NCBI GenBank assembly: GCA_005878525.1
Contig: VBMB01000033.1
Location: forward strand, 1 to 33,412
Length of the DNA: 33,412 nucleotides
From: Methanobacteriota archaeon
GTDB lineage: Archaea; Thermoplasmatota; Thermoplasmata; RBG-16-68-12
Direction of reading: 5' to 3'
Each line of letters opens with the position of its first letter. Position 1 is the first letter of the stretch. The notes under the pieces were generated by a model. That model saw only the letters and a list, made by a program, of their open reading frames with translations. It was not told the origin of the DNA and did not search any database. A program made the translations under genes and the position numbers. This document shows positions 2,898 to 24,397 of the stretch, in pieces.

Positions 2898-3881
2898 ATG
2901 CTCGTCGACGCATTCGGACGCGAAGTCACGGACATCCGTGTCAGCGTAACGAAGCGATGTAATTTCGGATGCATCTATTGCCACGACGAAGGCCTCGGTC
3001 CGATCCTGAAGCCGCGGATGCCCCACGAGGACGAGATGTCCGTGGCCGAGATCGAGCGGCTCCTGCGCGTCGCCCGCGAGTTTGGGATCCGCTCGGTGAA
3101 ATTCACGGGCGGCGAACCGCTCATCCGGCTGGATATGGAACAGATCATCGATCGTTCGGTCCGCCAACTTCCAGACGTCTCGATGACGACGAACGGCTCG
3201 ATGCTCGCGAAACGCGCGGAGGCTCTTCGGGACGCGGGTCTGAAACGCGTCAATGTTTCGATCGATTCGCTCGATCCCGCGGCCTTCCGAGACATCCGCA
3301 AAGGCGAGCTCGCGCCGGTCCTGCGTGGCATTCAGGAAGCGCTCCGAGTGGGCCTGAAGCCCGTCAAGCTCAACATGGTCGTGTTCAAACAGACGCTCCC
3401 GCACATCCCGCGGATGATCGAGTACATCTCCGACGGCGACGGGCTCAAGCTCCAGCTCATCCAGTTCATGCCGGAGCTCGTCGGTCAACAGGATTGGATG
3501 GTCGACATTGACGCCCTCAAGAAATGGCTCGAGGACCGCGCCGACAAGGTCCTCGTCCGCGAGATGCACCACCGGCGGATCTACCTCTTCAACGGCGCCG
3601 AGGTCGAGGTCGTCGACCCGGTGTACAACGCGGAGTTCTGCATGAACTGCCACCGGATCCGCGTGACGCACCAGGGGGAACTGAAAGGGTGCCTGAACCG
3701 CAACGACGACCTGATTCCGACGCGCAGCTTGGATGACGATGGCCTGCGGCAGGCCTTCCGACAGGTCGTCGCGAACCGCGTGCCGTACTACGGCGCCTAT
3801 GTGAAGGACTTCCCTCGACGGGATCCGCACGCCGCTTTGCCGATTGAATTCCCTACGGTCTCGTCGGCGGCGGCGGGCTGA
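2898..3881 (+). CDS. moaA: GTP 3',8-cyclase MoaA (radical SAM, molybdenum cofactor synthesis)
   Basis: MoaA converts GTP to 3',8-cyclo-7,8-dihydro-GTP, the first step of molybdopterin synthesis. The radical-SAM cluster motif is C21-x3-C25-x2-C28 and is followed by the SAM-binding GGEP at 71-74. The MoaA-specific second cluster is C248-x2-C251-x13-C265, in FCMNCHRIRVTHQGELKGC. Length (327 aa) matches the family. The C-terminus reads SSAAAG rather than the GG tail of well-studied MoaA proteins. The gene stops only 18 bp before the tnpB remnant, so insertion may have altered its 3' end. The ATG at 2888 is out of frame. No other molybdenum cofactor gene is in the window. Confidence 0.92.
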   Translation: MLVDAFGREVTDIRVSVTKRCNFGCIYCHDEGLGPILKPRMPHEDEMSVAEIERLLRVAREFGIRSVKFTGGEPLIRLDMEQIIDRSVRQLPDVSMTTNGSMLAKRAEALRDAGLKRVNVSIDSLDPAAFRDIRKGELAPVLRGIQEALRVGLKPVKLNMVVFKQTLPHIPRMIEYISDGDGLKLQLIQFMPELVGQQDWMVDIDALKKWLEDRADKVLVREMHHRRIYLFNGAEVEVVDPVYNAEFCMNCHRIRVTHQGELKGCLNRNDDLIPTRSLDDDGLRQAFRQVVANRVPYYGAYVKDFPRRDPHAALPIEFPTVSSAAAG

Positions 3882-3899
3882 GCCTTCGGTCAGGTTCTG

Positions 3900-5092
3900 T
3901 CACAAATCGGGTGATGGAATCATCCCCGTCTGCGACTCCACTCCGCTCGGCTCCTCCCTTGCGCCTGTCGGCAACGCCGACAGGTCGTAGAGGGGAATCA
4001 CCACATCACGGCGGAGGGCACCGGGCTGGAACCGTACCGCCCTTGCCAAGGCCTCGTTCGAGGCCAAGGCGGTTTTCAGGATGTTCAGGCCTGCGTTGAT
4101 CTGCCGGTCCATCTCCCAGTCGCACATCAAACACACGAACACCTTGCCCACCCTATCTCGGCGCCGGGCGCCACACACTGGGCAGGTCTTGCTGGTCCAC
4201 GCGGGGTTCACTTTGATGATTGGCACACCTTCGAGGGCGGCTTTGTACTCGATCTGACGACGGATCATAGAACGAGGCCAGGAGGAGAGGCAGCGGTTCA
4301 TCCGACGGGAAACGCCTCCCGCACGGTGGAGGGTGAGGTCCTCCAAGACAATCGCGGCCCGCGCCTCGGTCGCGAGTCGCACGAGGCCCTTGGAGACCCG
4401 ATGGAGCCGCTGGCGGACGCGTTGCCGTTCCCTCCGACCCTCGCGGTCGAGGAGCCGTCGAGCGACCCTCCTATCGAAGGCCTTCTTGCGGGCGAGTCTC
4501 CGTCGGCGTCGAAAGTGGATCTCCTGGATGCATCGCGCCGTGGGGCTCGTGCGGCTTCGGCGCCTCCTTCCTCAGGACGACGATAACCTTCCCCGGGACA
4601 ACCGTGAGGGATCCGAGGCCCCACGACGAGTCGCCGAGAATCGAACGGTGCCACTCGGAGAGCGGCAAAGTGCAGCTGAACTCCTTCCGTCTCCCGGATC
4701 GGGATTCCGATTCGTCCGGTCTCCCGGTCGAGCCAATAGGACTGGTTCTCCGCCTTCAACATGAGTCGACGAAGGAACGGGGTGGAGGACCGCTTTCCCT
4801 TCCTGATTCTGCGCCGATGCACCTTCAAGATGGCGAGGGCGACCTCGAACGCGGAGGGGATGTACTGCTTGTGCACCGCGTGGCGCGCGCTGAGGTCCGC
4901 GTATGCAGCCCGAGTGAGTCGCGCGCGAGATCGGATGTCTTCCCTCAGGGCGATCCGGATCGATTCGTTCACGAGGAGGCGGAATTCCGCTAGGAGCCAA
5001 CCAAGACCAGGATCCTCCGTCGTAACAGGAAAGACGAGGGCTCGGTGTGCGAGCACACTCCTCTCTAGCGAGGAGGAGGGCGTCAAAGTCAT
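3900..5092 (-). pseudogene. tnpB: Degraded IS605/IS1341-type TnpB (RNA-guided nuclease family)
   Basis: The gene is spread over three frames on the minus strand. The N-terminal piece begins at 5092 (residues through EGVQLHF). A one-base insertion in the AAA at 4667-4669 shifts into the frame of LPLSEWHRSILGDSSW and VRKEAPK-like sequence. A second frame change, with about 25 residues apparently missing near 4520-4560, leads to RLARKKAFDRR and then the C-terminal piece. The missing stretch should carry the first RuvC Asp. The second acidic site (IVLEDL), the zinc finger (CPVCG...CLMCD) and the third Asp (DRQINAG) survive. No tnpA is nearby. The element is therefore inactive as read. Confidence 0.85.
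3964..3984 (-). other. Strong hairpin in the 3' end of tnpB (possible guide-RNA or element-end structure)
   Basis: CCTGTCGGC and GCCGACAGG form a perfect 9-bp stem with a 3-nt loop within the last ~30 codons of the tnpB remnant. In IS605-family elements the omega/reRNA overlaps the 3' end of tnpB, so this may be part of that RNA or a right-end structure. Function is inferred from position only. Confidence 0.35.
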
Positions 5093-6828: not shown

Positions 6829-8190
6829 ATGGCGAAACGCACGAGGAAGGAGCTGCGCGGGCCGAAGATCGTTTCGGTCCCACCCGGACCGAAGTCGAAA
6901 GCCGCGATGGCGCGGAAAGAGAAGTTCATCACGAACGCCGTCAAGGTCGCCCTTCCCATCGACGTCACATTCGCGGAAGGTCCCTTCGTCCAAGACGCCG
7001 ATGGCAATGTCTACGTCGACCTGGGAGGCGGGATCGGCGTCCAGACCGCGGGCCACCGTCCACCTTCGGTCATTCGTGCCGCGAAAGACGAACTGGATCG
7101 GCTGACGCACATCTCTTTCATGGTGGCGACCTACGGGCCGTACACCGACCTGGCGGCGCGCATGGCGGAGATCTGTCCGCCGGGCCTGACGAAGTCGATC
7201 TTCCTCAACTCCGGGTCCGAGGCGATCGAGAACGCCGTCAAGATCTCGCGTGCCGCGACGAAGCGGGCGTGGCTCGTCTCCTTCAAGACCGCATTCCACG
7301 GACGCACGCTCCTCGACATCAGCCTCACGGGGAAGGACAAACCGTACCGCGAAGGATTCGGTCCGCTCGTCCGTGAGGTGATCCTCGCGGACTACGCATA
7401 CCCGTACCGCGACCCGGCGGGGCTCCCGCCCGCGGAGTGCGCGAAGGCCCGCGTCGAGGAAATCGAGCGGCTCATCAACCAGACGGAAGTCGCGGGCCGC
7501 GTCGCCGCGATCCTCGCGGAGCCGGTCCAGGGCGAAGGCGGGATGATCGTCCCGCCCAAGGAGTTCTTCCCGCTCCTCCGCAAGCTGTGCGACGCCCACG
7601 GCATCGTCCTCGTGGACGACGAGGTGCAGGCGGGGATGGGTCGCACCGGGAAGCTGTGGGCGATCGAGAACTGGAACACGGTGCCGGACATCCTCGTGAG
7701 CGGCAAGGCCGTCGGAGGCGGATTGCCGTTCGGCGGGGTGACGGGGAAGCCCGCGGTCATGGACCGACCGGGACCCGGGAGCCTGGGCGGGACGTTCGGC
7801 GGCAATCCCATCGTCTGTGCGGCGGCGCTCGAAGCGATCGACGTGATTCAGAAGGCACTCCCCAAGACGAAGCGGCTGGAGTCGCTCATCCGGAAACGGT
7901 TGGACGAGATCTTCGAAGGCCACGACCGCGTGGGTGAGGTCCGCGGCATCGGCGCGATGTGGGCGCTCGAGTTCGTCAAGGACCGCCGGACGAAAGAGCC
8001 GGACGTCGAACTCGCGCGGGCCGTTCAGCTCGCTGGCCTCAAGAACGGCCTCCTGCTCCTGACCGCGGGGTTCTTCAACAACTGCGTCCGCTTGCTCCCG
8101 CCGATCAACATCCCGCTGCCGTTGATGGCGAAGGCGCTCGACCTGCTCGAAGACAGCCTCGATCTGGCTCTCGCCGGGAAAGCGTCCTGA
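6829..8190 (+). CDS. Class III PLP-dependent aminotransferase (omega/GABA/beta-alanine type)
   Basis: The 453-residue protein has the fold type I class III features. SGSEAIENAVK binds phosphate, FHGRT follows at ~157, Asp264 in VDDEVQAGMGRTGK contacts the PLP ring nitrogen, and Lys293 in VSGKAVGGGLPFGG forms the Schiff base. GGTFGGNPI is also present. Such enzymes move the amino group of 4-aminobutyrate, beta-alanine or similar omega-amino acids to a keto acid. The next gene, 7 bp downstream, is a methylmalonate/malonate-semialdehyde-type dehydrogenase, so beta-alanine to malonate semialdehyde (or 3-aminoisobutyrate to methylmalonate semialdehyde) is the best guess. Substrate cannot be read from sequence alone. 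Confidence 0.9.
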   Translation: MAKRTRKELRGPKIVSVPPGPKSKAAMARKEKFITNAVKVALPIDVTFAEGPFVQDADGNVYVDLGGGIGVQTAGHRPPSVIRAAKDELDRLTHISFMVATYGPYTDLAARMAEICPPGLTKSIFLNSGSEAIENAVKISRAATKRAWLVSFKTAFHGRTLLDISLTGKDKPYREGFGPLVREVILADYAYPYRDPAGLPPAECAKARVEEIERLINQTEVAGRVAAILAEPVQGEGGMIVPPKEFFPLLRKLCDAHGIVLVDDEVQAGMGRTGKLWAIENWNTVPDILVSGKAVGGGLPFGGVTGKPAVMDRPGPGSLGGTFGGNPIVCAAALEAIDVIQKALPKTKRLESLIRKRLDEIFEGHDRVGEVRGIGAMWALEFVKDRRTKEPDVELARAVQLAGLKNGLLLLTAGFFNNCVRLLPPINIPLPLMAKALDLLEDSLDLALAGKAS

Positions 8191-13789: not shown

Positions 13790-14137
13790 CTAGAGGACCT
13801 TCTCGCGCAACATAGCGCGGTAGACGAGGCCCGATTCGATCGGCCCTCCGGTCGTTTCCCGCAGGTCCTTCACCCAGGCTCGGATCCGACGCGCGATTCG
13901 CGTCGCTCCTGCAAACCGAATCCGTCGGGTCGTGGTCCGTCTCCGCTTGATGGAACGGATCACGCTCGACCGGTCCGCGGGGCGGTACTCCCAACGGACG
14001 TACTCCGCCAAATCCGGGTTCCGGACGTACTCGCTCACGATTCCCTGCGCGTCGAAGATCGGATATGTGCTTCCGAACATGTACGGGAGAACAACGGGGT
14101 CGATGAGAGATTTTGACCCGCCATAGACGGCCGTCAA
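13790..14137 (-). CDS. Hypothetical basic protein, possible paralog of the product at 14479-14766
   Basis: I do not recognise the family. From the TTG at 14137 it is 115 residues; a shorter start is the ATG at 14080 (MFGSTYPIFDAQG). The central segment LAEYVRWEYRPADRSSVIRSIK resembles LREYSRLEYGRSDIGWILAS in the neighbour at 14479-14766. The second half is Arg-rich. The region at its 5' end (14112-14144) is nearly identical to the region upstream of that neighbour. Codon changes between the copies in that region are not synonymous, so it may be regulatory DNA rather than coding, which favours the ATG at 14080. Confidence 0.55.
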   Translation of the reverse strand: MTAVYGGSKSLIDPVVLPYMFGSTYPIFDAQGIVSEYVRNPDLAEYVRWEYRPADRSSVIRSIKRRRTTTRRIRFAGATRIARRIRAWVKDLRETTGGPIESGLVYRAMLREKVL

Positions 14138-14144
14138 ATGACGG
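14112..14144. promoter_or_regulatory. 33-bp palindrome-containing motif, copy A
   Basis: It begins TTTGACCCGCC and ends with the perfect inverted repeat CCGTCA-AA-TGACGG (14131-14144); it also contains the palindrome GACGGCCGTC. It matches copy B at 14777-14809 at 28 of 33 positions, in the same orientation, and lies at the 5' end of the minus-strand gene 13790-14137. A protein-binding site or shared promoter element is inferred. Confidence 0.5.
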
Positions 14145-14171
14145 GTCGGTGAAGACCCCTAGAGGCGAGGA

Positions 14172-14435
14172 TCACGCTTTCTTGCGAGCCTTGCGCGGCT
14201 GAACCCGAGCCCGGATCTCTTGGATCAGCTCGGCCGACTCGGGGAACCGGTTCGTCTTCTCGAGCGAAAACACAATCGTGTCGTCGACCGCGACGTCGTA
14301 CACGCCGTGGTCGCCTGGGACCAGTCGGAGGGCGGACAACGTCTCACCGAATTCCTTCAAAATCGCATCCGCGTCCTGGATCGCCTTGGGCAGATACCGA
14401 CACGGAGCGCAGTAGCGAATGGTGACTTCCGCCAT
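14172..14435 (-). CDS. SelW/Rdx-family redox protein (CxxC form)
   Basis: The 87-residue protein starts MAEVTIRYCAPCRYLPKA, with the redox motif C9-x2-C12 in the position where selenoprotein W family members carry CxxU or CxxC. The rest follows the family: LKEFGETLSALRLVPGDHGVYDVAVDDTIVFSLEKTNRFPESAELIQEIRARV. It has a thioredoxin-like fold. The biochemical role of archaeal and bacterial Rdx proteins is not well defined; thiol redox exchange is assumed. It sits on the same strand between the two paralog-like genes. Confidence 0.88.
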   Translation of the reverse strand: MAEVTIRYCAPCRYLPKAIQDADAILKEFGETLSALRLVPGDHGVYDVAVDDTIVFSLEKTNRFPESAELIQEIRARVQPRKARKKA

Positions 14436-14478
14436 CCCGCCTAGGGAGGGTGGCCGTGCGATAAAAAGGTGCGCCGCC

Positions 14479-14766
14479 TCACGGGCACTGGGTGTCGTCG
14501 TGACCGTGCACGTCGAAGGCGGCGAAGCCGCGGAAGGAGTTCAGGAAGTACCGCAGCCGCAACCCGAGCGAGCCCTTCGGGCGCTTCGTCGGCGCAGGCC
14601 GTGAGGCCTTCACCGAGGCGAGGATCCACCCGATGTCCGAGCGGCCGTACTCGAGCCGGCTGTACTCCCGGAGGGTGAAGTTGCGGTTGCTGTCTGTCCA
14701 AATCCGTGTGCTGTCCGGTGCAATCAGATACATGTGTTGTACCTCGGAAGAGGAAAAGACGTCCAT
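14479..14766 (-). CDS. Hypothetical protein, possible paralog of the product at 13790-14137
   Basis: I do not recognise the family. The frame from ATG 14766 gives 95 residues (MDVFSSSEVQHMYLIAPD); a second ATG at 14733 aligns with the ATG at 14080 of the other gene. The shared signature is (A/R)EY-x-R-x-EY-x-x-(A/S)D followed by an Ile/Val and Lys-rich helix. The C-terminus is different, with FLNSFRGFAAFDVHGHDDTQCP. The gene is divergent from the HTH_10 regulator, and motif copy B lies between them. A role in the regulator's regulon is possible. Coding status is moderately supported. Confidence 0.5.
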   Translation of the reverse strand: MDVFSSSEVQHMYLIAPDSTRIWTDSNRNFTLREYSRLEYGRSDIGWILASVKASRPAPTKRPKGSLGLRLRYFLNSFRGFAAFDVHGHDDTQCP

Positions 14767-14776
14767 GACGAACCTC

Positions 14777-14809
14777 TTTGACCCGCCTTCGGCGGCCGTC
14801 GTATGACGG
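14777..14809. promoter_or_regulatory. 33-bp palindrome-containing motif, copy B
   Basis: It shares 28 of 33 positions with copy A, including TTTGACCCGCC, GCGGCCGTC and ATGACGG, with CCGTC-N4-GACGG arms. It ends 6 bp before the TATA-like box of the divergent HTH_10 gene, a position where a bound regulator would block TFB/TBP. Operator function, perhaps for the adjacent regulator, is inferred. Confidence 0.5.
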
Positions 14810-14814
14810 CACCA

Positions 14815-14822
14815 CCTATATC
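14815..14822 (+). promoter_or_regulatory. TATA-like box of the HTH_10 regulator gene
   Basis: CCTATATC lies 33 nt upstream of the ATG at 14848, supporting a leaderless transcript from that codon. Read on the other strand it is also AT-rich and could serve the divergent gene. Confidence 0.5.
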
Positions 14823-14847: not shown

Positions 14848-15582
14848 ATGAGCCTCTGGGAGATCTCGTTTCGGACCCAGTACGACTACCCGTTCATGAA
14901 AATCTCCGCGCACCATCCCGGCCTTCCCATCTCGATGTGGTGCATCTGGAATCGAGAGATGATCCAGGTGCCGACCCGAGACGAGAACGTGCTCGACGAA
15001 ATCGCGAAAGAGATTCGGAAGGCGGGTAAGTGCATCGACGAATGGGCCGAGGCGGGGGACTCCCGCATCTTCATGCTCAAGTGCACGTGCGCGAGCTGGG
15101 ACAGCCCATGGAACGTCTGGGAACCCCATGAGGCCGTGGAAGCGCCTCCGGCGATTTTCAAGGACGGCTGGGGCTATTTCCGAGTGATTGCCTTCGACGA
15201 GGTCCGCACGCGGGACCTGTTCAAGGACTTCAACAAACGCGGTCCGACGGAGCTGATCCGGAAACGGGAACTTCCGCTCAGCGTCCTGCCGTCGAGCATC
15301 TGGGTGAACAGCCTTTTCGGCGACCTGACGTCGAAGCAGTCAGACGCGCTCCTGAAGGCGCACCGCTACGGATACTACAGCTCCCCGCGCGACGTGACGA
15401 CGGAGAGCATCGCCCGGAGTCTCGGGGTCAGCCGATCCACGTACGAGGAGCATCTGCGCAAGGCGGAGAACCGGGTCATGGGCAACCTGATCCCGTACCT
15501 CCAGCTGTTCTCGTCCGGTGAGAAGAGGCCGGACAAGATGCCGCTCAAGGAGACGCCGCTCGAGTCGAACGTCGAAGCCTGA
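14848..15582 (+). CDS. Bacterio-opsin activator-type HTH_10 transcriptional regulator
   Basis: The 244-residue product has a C-terminal HTH_10 domain (~residues 165-225): LTSKQSDALLKAHRYGYYSSPRDVTTESIARSLGVSRSTYEEHLRKAENRVM. This is the signature of Bat-like archaeal regulators. The N-terminal ~160 residues are a sensor-like region (SFRTQYDYPFMKIS...) containing several Cys and Trp, resembling the variable input domains of this class. ATG 14848 is chosen from TATA spacing; ATG 14836 is an alternative. It is divergent from the small gene 14479-14766 and convergent with the bactofilin-like gene, 4 bp from its stop. The ligand and targets are unknown. Confidence 0.88.
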   Translation: MSLWEISFRTQYDYPFMKISAHHPGLPISMWCIWNREMIQVPTRDENVLDEIAKEIRKAGKCIDEWAEAGDSRIFMLKCTCASWDSPWNVWEPHEAVEAPPAIFKDGWGYFRVIAFDEVRTRDLFKDFNKRGPTELIRKRELPLSVLPSSIWVNSLFGDLTSKQSDALLKAHRYGYYSSPRDVTTESIARSLGVSRSTYEEHLRKAENRVMGNLIPYLQLFSSGEKRPDKMPLKETPLESNVEA

Positions 15583-15586
15583 GGCT

Positions 15587-16045
15587 TCACGGACCCGGCG
15601 CGGCCGGGGGTTTCGGCGGCGAGGCGGGCGGACCTGGAGCCGTTCCCGCTGGCGCCGGGGCGGGGGGTGGCGTGACCGGTTTCTCGGGCGGCGGGAGTGG
15701 CGCACTGTGGGTCTGCCCGATGACCTTGCCCCGGACGACGGCTCCTTTGTCGACGTAGAGACGGCCGCCTTCGTTGACGACGTCTCCTTGGACTAGCCCA
15801 TAGACCTCGAGGTCCCCGCCCGCCGCTTTCGCGGCTTTCGTCACGAGGCCCCGGAGGACCGCCTTGCCCGTCCGCTCCGCGAGGAGGTTCCCGGACACCA
15901 TCCCAGTCACGTCGCACACGCTGCTGTCGCGGACGAACAGGTCGCCGCGGACGAGGCCGGTCATCGTCGTTGGCCGCGGCCCGATTACCACGACGGAGCC
16001 TTCGAAGCGCTCATCGAGCACGCCGCCGCGGAAGATTCGCACCAT
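15587..16045 (-). CDS. Polymer-forming (bactofilin-like) beta-helix protein with Pro/Ala-rich tail
   Basis: Residues ~1-110 contain short repeats of the type G-x-V-x-G-D-x-x-V, for example GLVRGDLFVRDSSVCDVTGMVSGNLLA, then GDLEVYGLVQGDVVNEGGRLYVDKGAVVRGKVIG. These form a right-handed beta-helix in bactofilins and related polymer-forming proteins. The last ~40 residues are a low-complexity Pro/Ala/Gly tail, likely disordered. Function in archaea is uncertain; a scaffold or surface-associated role is possible. ATG 16045 is the clear start. The fold call is by pattern; assignment to bactofilins proper is tentative. Confidence 0.65.
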   Translation of the reverse strand: MVRIFRGGVLDERFEGSVVVIGPRPTTMTGLVRGDLFVRDSSVCDVTGMVSGNLLAERTGKAVLRGLVTKAAKAAGGDLEVYGLVQGDVVNEGGRLYVDKGAVVRGKVIGQTHSAPLPPPEKPVTPPPAPAPAGTAPGPPASPPKPPAAPGP

Positions 16046-23023: not shown

Positions 23024-24397
23024 ATGACGAGGCGGACGTTCCCCGCGAGGATGGCGAAGAAGGGGGCGAGGCCTCCGGTCGGGACGAAGGGCGCCGCGGA
23101 CTGGTACTGGAAGCGCTACACGGAACTCTACCCGAAGTACTTCTGGGCCGACGACACGAAGCTTGCGGACATCGTGGTCGCGTCCGCGAAGGGCTCCCTC
23201 CTGTATGACGTCGAGGGCAAGGAGTACATCGACCTCACGAGCCAATGGGCGACGAACAATCTGGGGAACGTCCATCCGGAGATCCTGAAGGCGACCGTGG
23301 ATGCGCTCGAGCGCTACGGGTTCCTCATCCTCTTCATGAATCCGCATCTCCCGATGATCGATGTCGCGGAGCGGCTCCTGTCGATTCGTCCGTCGGACAA
23401 CCTCACACGCGTATTCCTCGAGCTCTCCGGCACCGGGGCCGCGGAAGGTGCGGTCAAGCACGCGATCGAGGCGAGCGGTCGGCCGCTCATCTTGAGCTTC
23501 ATGGGACAGTATCACGGGCTCAGCATCGGGGCGACGGCGTTTGGCACCCTCGCGTCGCGCATGCGACGGAACTGGGAGGCCTTCTCCGGAGGCGCCATCC
23601 ACTCGCCCTACCCGATGACGTATCGGAAACCGAAGGGCATGACGGACGATCAGTTCGGAGAGTGGTGCCTCGGATTCCTCGAGGACCAGATCCTCCGGTA
23701 CGTCGCCTCCCCGGATCGGATCGCGGGGGCGATCTTCGAGCCGGTGGCCCTGGAGGCGGGCGTCTGGATCCCCCCCAAGAATTTCGCGCTTGGCCTTCGC
23801 AAGCTCGCGGATCAGCACGGCTGGTTCTTCATCGCGGACGAGGTCGAGGCCGGGCTCGGTCGCACCGGGAAGATGTGGGGGATCGAGCACTTCGGCGTCG
23901 CGCCGGATCTCGTCTCGATTGGCAAGGCGCTCGGGGGCGGGTTGATGCCTCTGGGCGCGGTCCTCGGGGACGATCGATCCATGGGCAAGGGTGACGTCGT
24001 GGCGGGGACCACCTTCGGCGGGCATCCGGCCGCCTGCGTGGCCGCGACGGTCACGATCGATATCATGCGACGAGACCGGATTCCGGAACGCGCGGCCCGG
24101 GTCGGCGGAAAGGCCCTGAAGCGCGTGAAGGAGTGGGAAGACCTCTCGATCGTCGGCGAGACGCGCGGCCTCGGCCTCGCGATCGGCGTCGAGATCGTGA
24201 GCAACAAAGGGACGAAGGCCCGCGACAACGACACCGCGCGGGACGTCTTCTTTGACTGTGTCCGCGGCGGCGTCATCCCGCTATACGACTACGAGATGAA
24301 CGTTCTCCGGATCCAGCCCCCGCTGACGATCGAGGAACCGTTGCTCGACAAGGCCCTCGACGGGATGGAGTCGGCGTTGCGCAAGCACTCCCGCTAA
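23024..24397 (+). CDS. Second class III PLP-dependent aminotransferase
   Basis: The 457-residue enzyme differs from the one at 6829 but carries the same catalytic set. ELSGTGAAEGAVKHA is in the phosphate-binding position, MGQYHGLS follows at ~160, Asp272 lies in ADEVEAGLGRTGKMWG, Lys301 lies in SIGKALGGGLMPLGA, and TTFGGHPAA is also present. The substrate is an omega-amino acid or amine of unknown identity. An in-frame ATG at 23051 (MAKKGARPP) is an equally possible start. The stop overlaps that of the convergent saccharopine-dehydrogenase-like gene by four bases. Closeness to an ALDH and that gene suggests lysine or related diamine/amino-acid catabolism; this is inference. Confidence 0.9.
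   Translation: MTRRTFPARMAKKGARPPVGTKGAADWYWKRYTELYPKYFWADDTKLADIVVASAKGSLLYDVEGKEYIDLTSQWATNNLGNVHPEILKATVDALERYGFLILFMNPHLPMIDVAERLLSIRPSDNLTRVFLELSGTGAAEGAVKHAIEASGRPLILSFMGQYHGLSIGATAFGTLASRMRRNWEAFSGGAIHSPYPMTYRKPKGMTDDQFGEWCLGFLEDQILRYVASPDRIAGAIFEPVALEAGVWIPPKNFALGLRKLADQHGWFFIADEVEAGLGRTGKMWGIEHFGVAPDLVSIGKALGGGLMPLGAVLGDDRSMGKGDVVAGTTFGGHPAACVAATVTIDIMRRDRIPERAARVGGKALKRVKEWEDLSIVGETRGLGLAIGVEIVSNKGTKARDNDTARDVFFDCVRGGVIPLYDYEMNVLRIQPPLTIEEPLLDKALDGMESALRKHSR

Follow-up and report, generated by a model that had tools for sequence, protein, structure and literature searches.

Two copies of a predicted operator-plus-promoter element beside the gene of an HTH_10 regulator in an uncultured soil Thermoplasmata archaeon

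Two near-identical 33-bp motifs within the window, the 33,412-nucleotide stretch of archaeal DNA analyzed here (contig C33 of a 2.0-Mb genome in 165 contigs), are likely to be operator-plus-promoter elements that together form a compact two-site autoregulated unit of the adjacent HTH_10 regulator. Through these elements the regulator would, very probably, govern the expression of its own gene and that of two small genes nearby. A small local regulon at 13.8–15.6 kb had been put forward in a preliminary description of this DNA, and such a unit is favoured by the conservation of the motif, its uniqueness in the genome, its co-occurrence with the regulator and its fixed placement at promoters. 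The features of the unit are as follows.

14848–15582, plus strand: HTH_10 regulator (PF04967, E 5e-19) with a PF24280 (HVO_A0563_N) N-terminal domain
14817–14821, plus strand: TATAT in the sequence of the putative regulator promoter
14777–14809, unstranded: copy B, predicted composite element with operator and promoter parts, located between gene B and the divergent regulator
14796–14809: core palindrome of copy B, CCGTC-GTAT-GACGG
14783–14795: second dyad of copy B, CCGCC-TTC-GGCGG
14777–14781: TTTGA edge of copy B
14751–14761, minus strand: initiator-like element CGTCTTTTCCT of the gene B promoter (putative role)
14479–14733, minus strand: gene B, divergent from the regulator; small basic protein of 84 aa, pI 9.9, with an L..Y.R.EYG motif
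14172–14435, minus strand: SelW/SelT/SelH-like (Rdx) thioredoxin-fold protein, Cys form YCAPC (PF10262, TIGR02174)
14112–14144, unstranded: copy A, the same predicted composite element as copy B, upstream of gene A and after the end of the SelW-like gene
14131–14144: core palindrome of copy A, CCGTC-AAAT-GACGG
14087–14097, minus strand: initiator-like element CGTTGTTCTCC of the gene A promoter (putative role)
13790–14080, minus strand: gene A, small basic protein of 96 aa, pI 11.2, paralogue of gene B

The two copies, TTTGACCCGCCATAGACGGCCGTCAAATGACGG (A) and TTTGACCCGCCTTCGGCGGCCGTCGTATGACGG (B), are identical at 28 of 33 positions in the same orientation, as had been reported, while the chance expectation for pairs this alike in a window of this composition is about 0.004. 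No third copy with three or fewer mismatches to the pattern shared by A and B was found in the whole 2.0-Mb genome, and the pattern was absent from 100 shuffles of the window. A few other pairs of 33-mers in the window are equally similar and look like related coding sequence; one of these, 7639–7671 and 23858–23890, is 30/33 identical (GGTCGCACCGGGAAG-TGTGGG-GATCGAG) and is apparently related coding sequence and no regulatory repeat. The CCGTC...GACGG arms and the TTTGACCCGCC noted in the preliminary description are real and present in both copies, and the CCGTC-N4-GACGG palindrome stands; the motif is not a single palindrome, however, but a composite in which this palindrome adjoins a CCGCC-N3-GRCGG dyad with TTTGA at its outer edge. 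The complete layout, TTTGA-C-CCGCC-NNN-GRCGG-CCGTC-NNNN-GACGG, contains four CCGYC/GRCGG half-sites that make up two adjoining dyads. On the minus strand the order is motif B, gene B (14733–14479), the SelW-like gene (14435–14172), motif A and gene A (14080–13790), and the copies do flank the SelW-like gene.

Conservation was assessed in relatives, the nearest named ones being metagenome assemblies labelled ‘Euryarchaeota archaeon’ and ‘Thermoplasmata archaeon’, of which many derive from a single soil-depth sample set (EA_). A sequence profile built from 26 motif copies and run on 61 genomes, a search the preliminary description had proposed for the genome and its relatives, gave 27 strong matches (36.8–45.8 bits), all at this locus or on the duplicate contig G018:C55, while the next best match anywhere scored 21.9 bits; as the profile contains the matched sequences, their own high scores are expected and the gap is the finding. 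The full motif is thus confined to this locus, and it is conserved at both positions, so that neither a lack of conservation in relatives nor random occurrence in coding regions, both checked as possible objections, refutes a local regulon. The match on the second contig (G018:C55:6571-6604) is a copy of the motif A/gene A unit and probably represents a strain variant or an assembly duplicate. Among the 19 genus genomes searched, all 15 with an intact regulator start carry the full motif; it was not found in the other four. In G005, G007 and G015 the HTH_10 proteins present are all distant paralogues, and in G016 a contig edge leaves no more than the 3' end of the regulator. These absences weigh little since the four assemblies are 65–85% complete. 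The exact core CCGTC-N-WW-N-GACGG occurs one to three times per genome in five genomes tested, and the two matches outside the locus are both within long open frames. A larger regulon was rejected, as the genome-wide profile and exact-palindrome searches gave no further promoter sites.

The placement of the core relative to the regulator gene is equally constrained. In all 26 orthologous loci, taking the best CCGYC-N4-GRCGG match within a 50-bp search interval, the core palindrome begins −50 to −52 from the regulator ATG, a conserved distance beside the regulator's own TATA/BRE region. These loci come from the genus of the window, from another genus and from groups further removed, with a regulator identity of 57–100% (57–59% for the distant ones), and the core matches CCGYC-N4-GRCGG exactly in 23 of them, deviating at one position in L018, L019 and L026. 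The TATA box that had been placed beside copy B is the TATAT starting 7 bp after it; an AT-rich promoter box is kept at the same place after the core in the relatives, and the regulator start at 14848 is predicted to be nearly leaderless.

Comparison of loci with and without gene B separates the parts of the element. In five distant loci lacking gene B (L051–L054 and L057) the core is kept and TTTGACCCGCC is gone, with the GACGG preceding the core retained in four of the five. Conversely, wherever gene B is present an edge of the TTGA or TTTCA type persists, including in loci with a decayed second dyad (L018, L019, L023, L024 and L027). Most simply, the core is to be assigned to the regulator and TTTGA to the promoter of gene B or gene A. 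Because the core stays while TTTGACCCGCC disappears without gene B, the 33-bp element resembles an operator joined to a weak promoter of the small genes, one that is poor in TATA. Apparent additional GACGGCCGTC matches, about 200 bp from the regulator on its upstream side in L051–L053 (about 330 bp in L057), were discarded, as they fall within coding sequence where a divergent ATPase gene begins.

Each motif copy had been placed at the 5' end of a small minus-strand gene. Both copies are indeed upstream of these genes but not inside them, the true ATGs being at 14080 and 14733. The gene A ATG, 32 nt downstream of motif A in the window, is separated from it by exactly 31 nt in 11 of 11 species, and the start reads ATGTTCGG in ten of these and ATGTACGAA in one. 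The gene B ATG lies 44 nt from motif B (42–45 nt in 20 of 20 loci) and is preceded in most loci by GAGG, which in the window is a ribosome-binding-site-like GAGGT. Both small-gene promoters share the consensus CGTCNTTCTCC about 15–26 nt from the motif edge; this roughly matches the distance from TBP site to transcription start, a spacing that suggests an initiator role for CGTCNTTCTCC and a TBP-site role for TTTGA.

An hhalign comparison shows the gene A and gene B protein families to be homologous (probability 95.9%, E 5.5e-9), and since the two genes are paralogues copy A is probably part of a duplicated promoter-plus-gene unit. Gene A and motif A are co-present in 11 close species; neither was found in more distant members of the genus. 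Within species the A and B motifs are 76–94% identical, while their flanks average 48% on the gene side and 35% on the other side. Motif identity is no closer within species than between them (0.824 against 0.813), indicating that the likeness of A and B is kept by selection and not by gene conversion or recent exchange. Probably, then, the motif-plus-small-gene unit duplicated once, after which the proteins diverged and the DNA element stayed. To the right of motif A in L011–L014, about 8–13 nt beyond it, a plus-strand GATAT/TATAT-like box resembles a displaced TATA box; it may be what is left of a duplicated regulator promoter, or may serve as an antisense promoter. On contig G002:C104 (L012, L104), the regulator match and the gene B match are each listed with one internal TGA, which may be a terminal stop, an assembly error or a sign of decay.

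Searching with the gene B profile reveals one more member of the family in the genome (G000:C128, E 7e-4), a third paralogue whose relatives occur in other species as well (E 8e-6 in G001):

3298–3564 of G000:C128 (L128), minus strand: third paralogue, a member of the small basic L..Y.R.E[YF]G family; its divergent neighbour is at 3648–4367 (plus strand)

Its divergent partner is an ArsR-type HTH protein (PF01022, E 3e-16), and a similar arrangement of small paralogue and ArsR-type regulator is present at L133. Pfam yielded no match for any of the small proteins tested and NCBIfam none for genes A and B; the gene B profile matched no solved structure, and the AlphaFold2 model of gene B is weak (pLDDT 59.7). 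The locus thereby hints at a family of small proteins, associated with transcription regulators, that is as yet undescribed; this is a lead and not a result. That these proteins are dedicated partners of divergently paired regulators (HTH_10 here, ArsR-type at C128 and L133) is a tentative proposal that we rate as rather unlikely; if true, Thermoplasmata would possess a small co-regulator module that is transferable, comparable to Brb and its partner Bat.

The regulator itself is classified by its domains. PF04967 scores 68.2 bits against a curated cut-off of 23.1, and the N-terminal PF24280 domain scores 38 bits against a cut-off of 27, making this an HTH_10 regulator of the HVO_A0563 type. 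The earlier designation as Bat-like holds for the HTH_10 domain; the GAF and PAS/PAC sensor architecture of Bat proper is absent, and Pfam shows PF24280 instead. Across the loci that carry the predicted operator, the region of the recognition helix (SRST-x-EEHLRKAEN) hardly varies. The AlphaFold2 model (pLDDT 76) has a sole PDB match below E 0.001, Ta1207 (E 7e-4), along with weak matches to TraR and sigma region 4. Cys32, Cys79 and Cys81 are invariant among 19 orthologues, which together with the SelW-like neighbour suggests that the regulator may sense a redox or metal signal. Within the genus of the window the SelW-like gene lies downstream of gene B, an arrangement not found in the second genus or in the further families examined. 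Its start carries no motif, and it is probably co-transcribed with gene B. Convergent with the regulator, an open reading frame at 15587–16045 (minus strand) has a weak bactofilin-like PF04519 match (E 2e-4) that is below the cut-off.

The data presented above have led us to propose a model whereby the regulator would bind CCGTC-N4-GACGG, probably with a dimer on each palindrome, together with the neighbouring CCGCC-N3-GRCGG dyad. From copy B, flanked by two promoters, it would control its own TATA promoter and the weak, TTTGA-edged gene B promoter with the SelW-like gene behind it; at copy A it would control gene A alone. Activation, through recruitment of TBP/TFB, is suggested because the motif sits just upstream of the TATA region and beside TATA-poor promoters. 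In L024 and L027 (family f5), a second CCGTC-N4-GACGG palindrome is found at −17 from the regulator ATG, over the predicted transcription start, a position more typical of repression that suggests autorepression in those loci. The locus offers a sharply defined predicted operator, CCGTC-N4-GACGG, at a fixed promoter spacing, for an HTH_10/PF24280 regulator of uncultured soil Thermoplasmata, a class for which we found little DNA-binding information. Being self-contained, with two sites in each genome, the unit lends itself to in vitro tests that need a single protein and two short DNA fragments.

Four other explanations were weighed against control by the adjacent regulator. The motif could be the operator of another regulator encoded elsewhere, of the ArsR, TrmB or HxlR type, with the HTH_10 protein merely a target. 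Other types of archaeal regulator do bind palindromes with 5-bp arms and an N4 spacer beside TATA boxes, as CsmR does at TATCA-N4-TGATA (PMC13286277), but if an outside regulator acted on further targets, further sites would be expected, and none of comparable score occurs in the 61 genomes. The core also tracks HTH_10 orthologues through several families, even where the divergent gene differs, and we consider this explanation distinctly unlikely. A second DNA-binding protein that travels with this locus may, alternatively, bind the motif. It is far less probable that the motif acts as RNA, in a leader hairpin or a terminator of minus-strand transcripts. The minus strand can form CCGYC-NNN-GGCGG if G-U pairs are tolerated; against this, there is no Rfam family at the motif and no compensatory-change pair within the genus (pairs counted on the plus strand), the core stays beside the regulator promoter in lineages without gene B, the predicted transcript starts downstream of the motif, and copy B follows no gene end. 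Still less credible is a mobile-element end or recombination site repeated around the SelW-like gene: two direct copies do flank this genus-specific gene, but they have no other genomic copies, keep a fixed promoter spacing, are stably maintained in 11 species, and copy B exists in loci without the SelW-like gene or copy A. We attach almost no probability to conserved coding sequence for N-terminal TA-x-x-GGSK peptides of the two paralogous small proteins: both window copies happen to be in open frame with the small genes, but stops between motif and gene B in L011, L012 and L016 interrupt the frame and already refute this explanation, and the conserved downstream ATGs and the persistence of the core without gene B argue against it. 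The preliminary description had deduced conservation at the DNA level from differences at residue-changing codon positions; the conclusion was right, and the remark on residues falls away because the motif lies upstream of the small genes.

Control by the adjacent HTH_10 regulator can be set beside several known systems. The site resembles that of CsmR of Haloferax volcanii, a promoter-proximal semi-palindrome upstream of BRE and TATA (PMC13286277), in its 5-bp arms and N4 spacer; CsmR, in contrast, is a small winged-helix protein with many targets, and its arms differ from those of the window motif. The regulator shares its Pfam domain architecture with PF24280/HTH_10 (HVO_A0563-type) regulators; our literature search found no paper naming HVO_A0563 and hence no operator for comparison. 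The SelW-like protein matches both PF10262 and TIGR02174 of the SelW/SelT/SelH (Rdx) family, has Cys where the family has selenocysteine, and is a passenger gene of the unit. The unit as a whole resembles the Bat purple-membrane regulon, where small partner proteins, including basic ones, are encoded beside Bat homologues, Brb cooperates with Bat, and an inverted repeat overlaps the divergent brz/brp promoters (PMC2253796, PMC3184054). In Halobacterium salinarum the TATA box of bop deviates from consensus (GTTACA) (PMC2121645), and the regulatory site lies 5' of this atypical promoter, as proposed here. The window regulator is not Bat, since it has a PF24280 N-terminal domain where Bat has GAF and PAS domains; its predicted targets are confined to this locus, and the unit contains no opsin or carotenoid genes. 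The small proteins of the window, which have no zinc-finger cysteines, are likened to Brb by size, charge and position, being small, basic (pI 9.9–12.0 for full-length members) and encoded beside an HTH_10 regulator. Both systems nevertheless pair an HTH_10 regulator with small proteins encoded alongside, and by this analogy the locus would work like a Bat-type local switch, a known and ordinary kind of local genetic switch.
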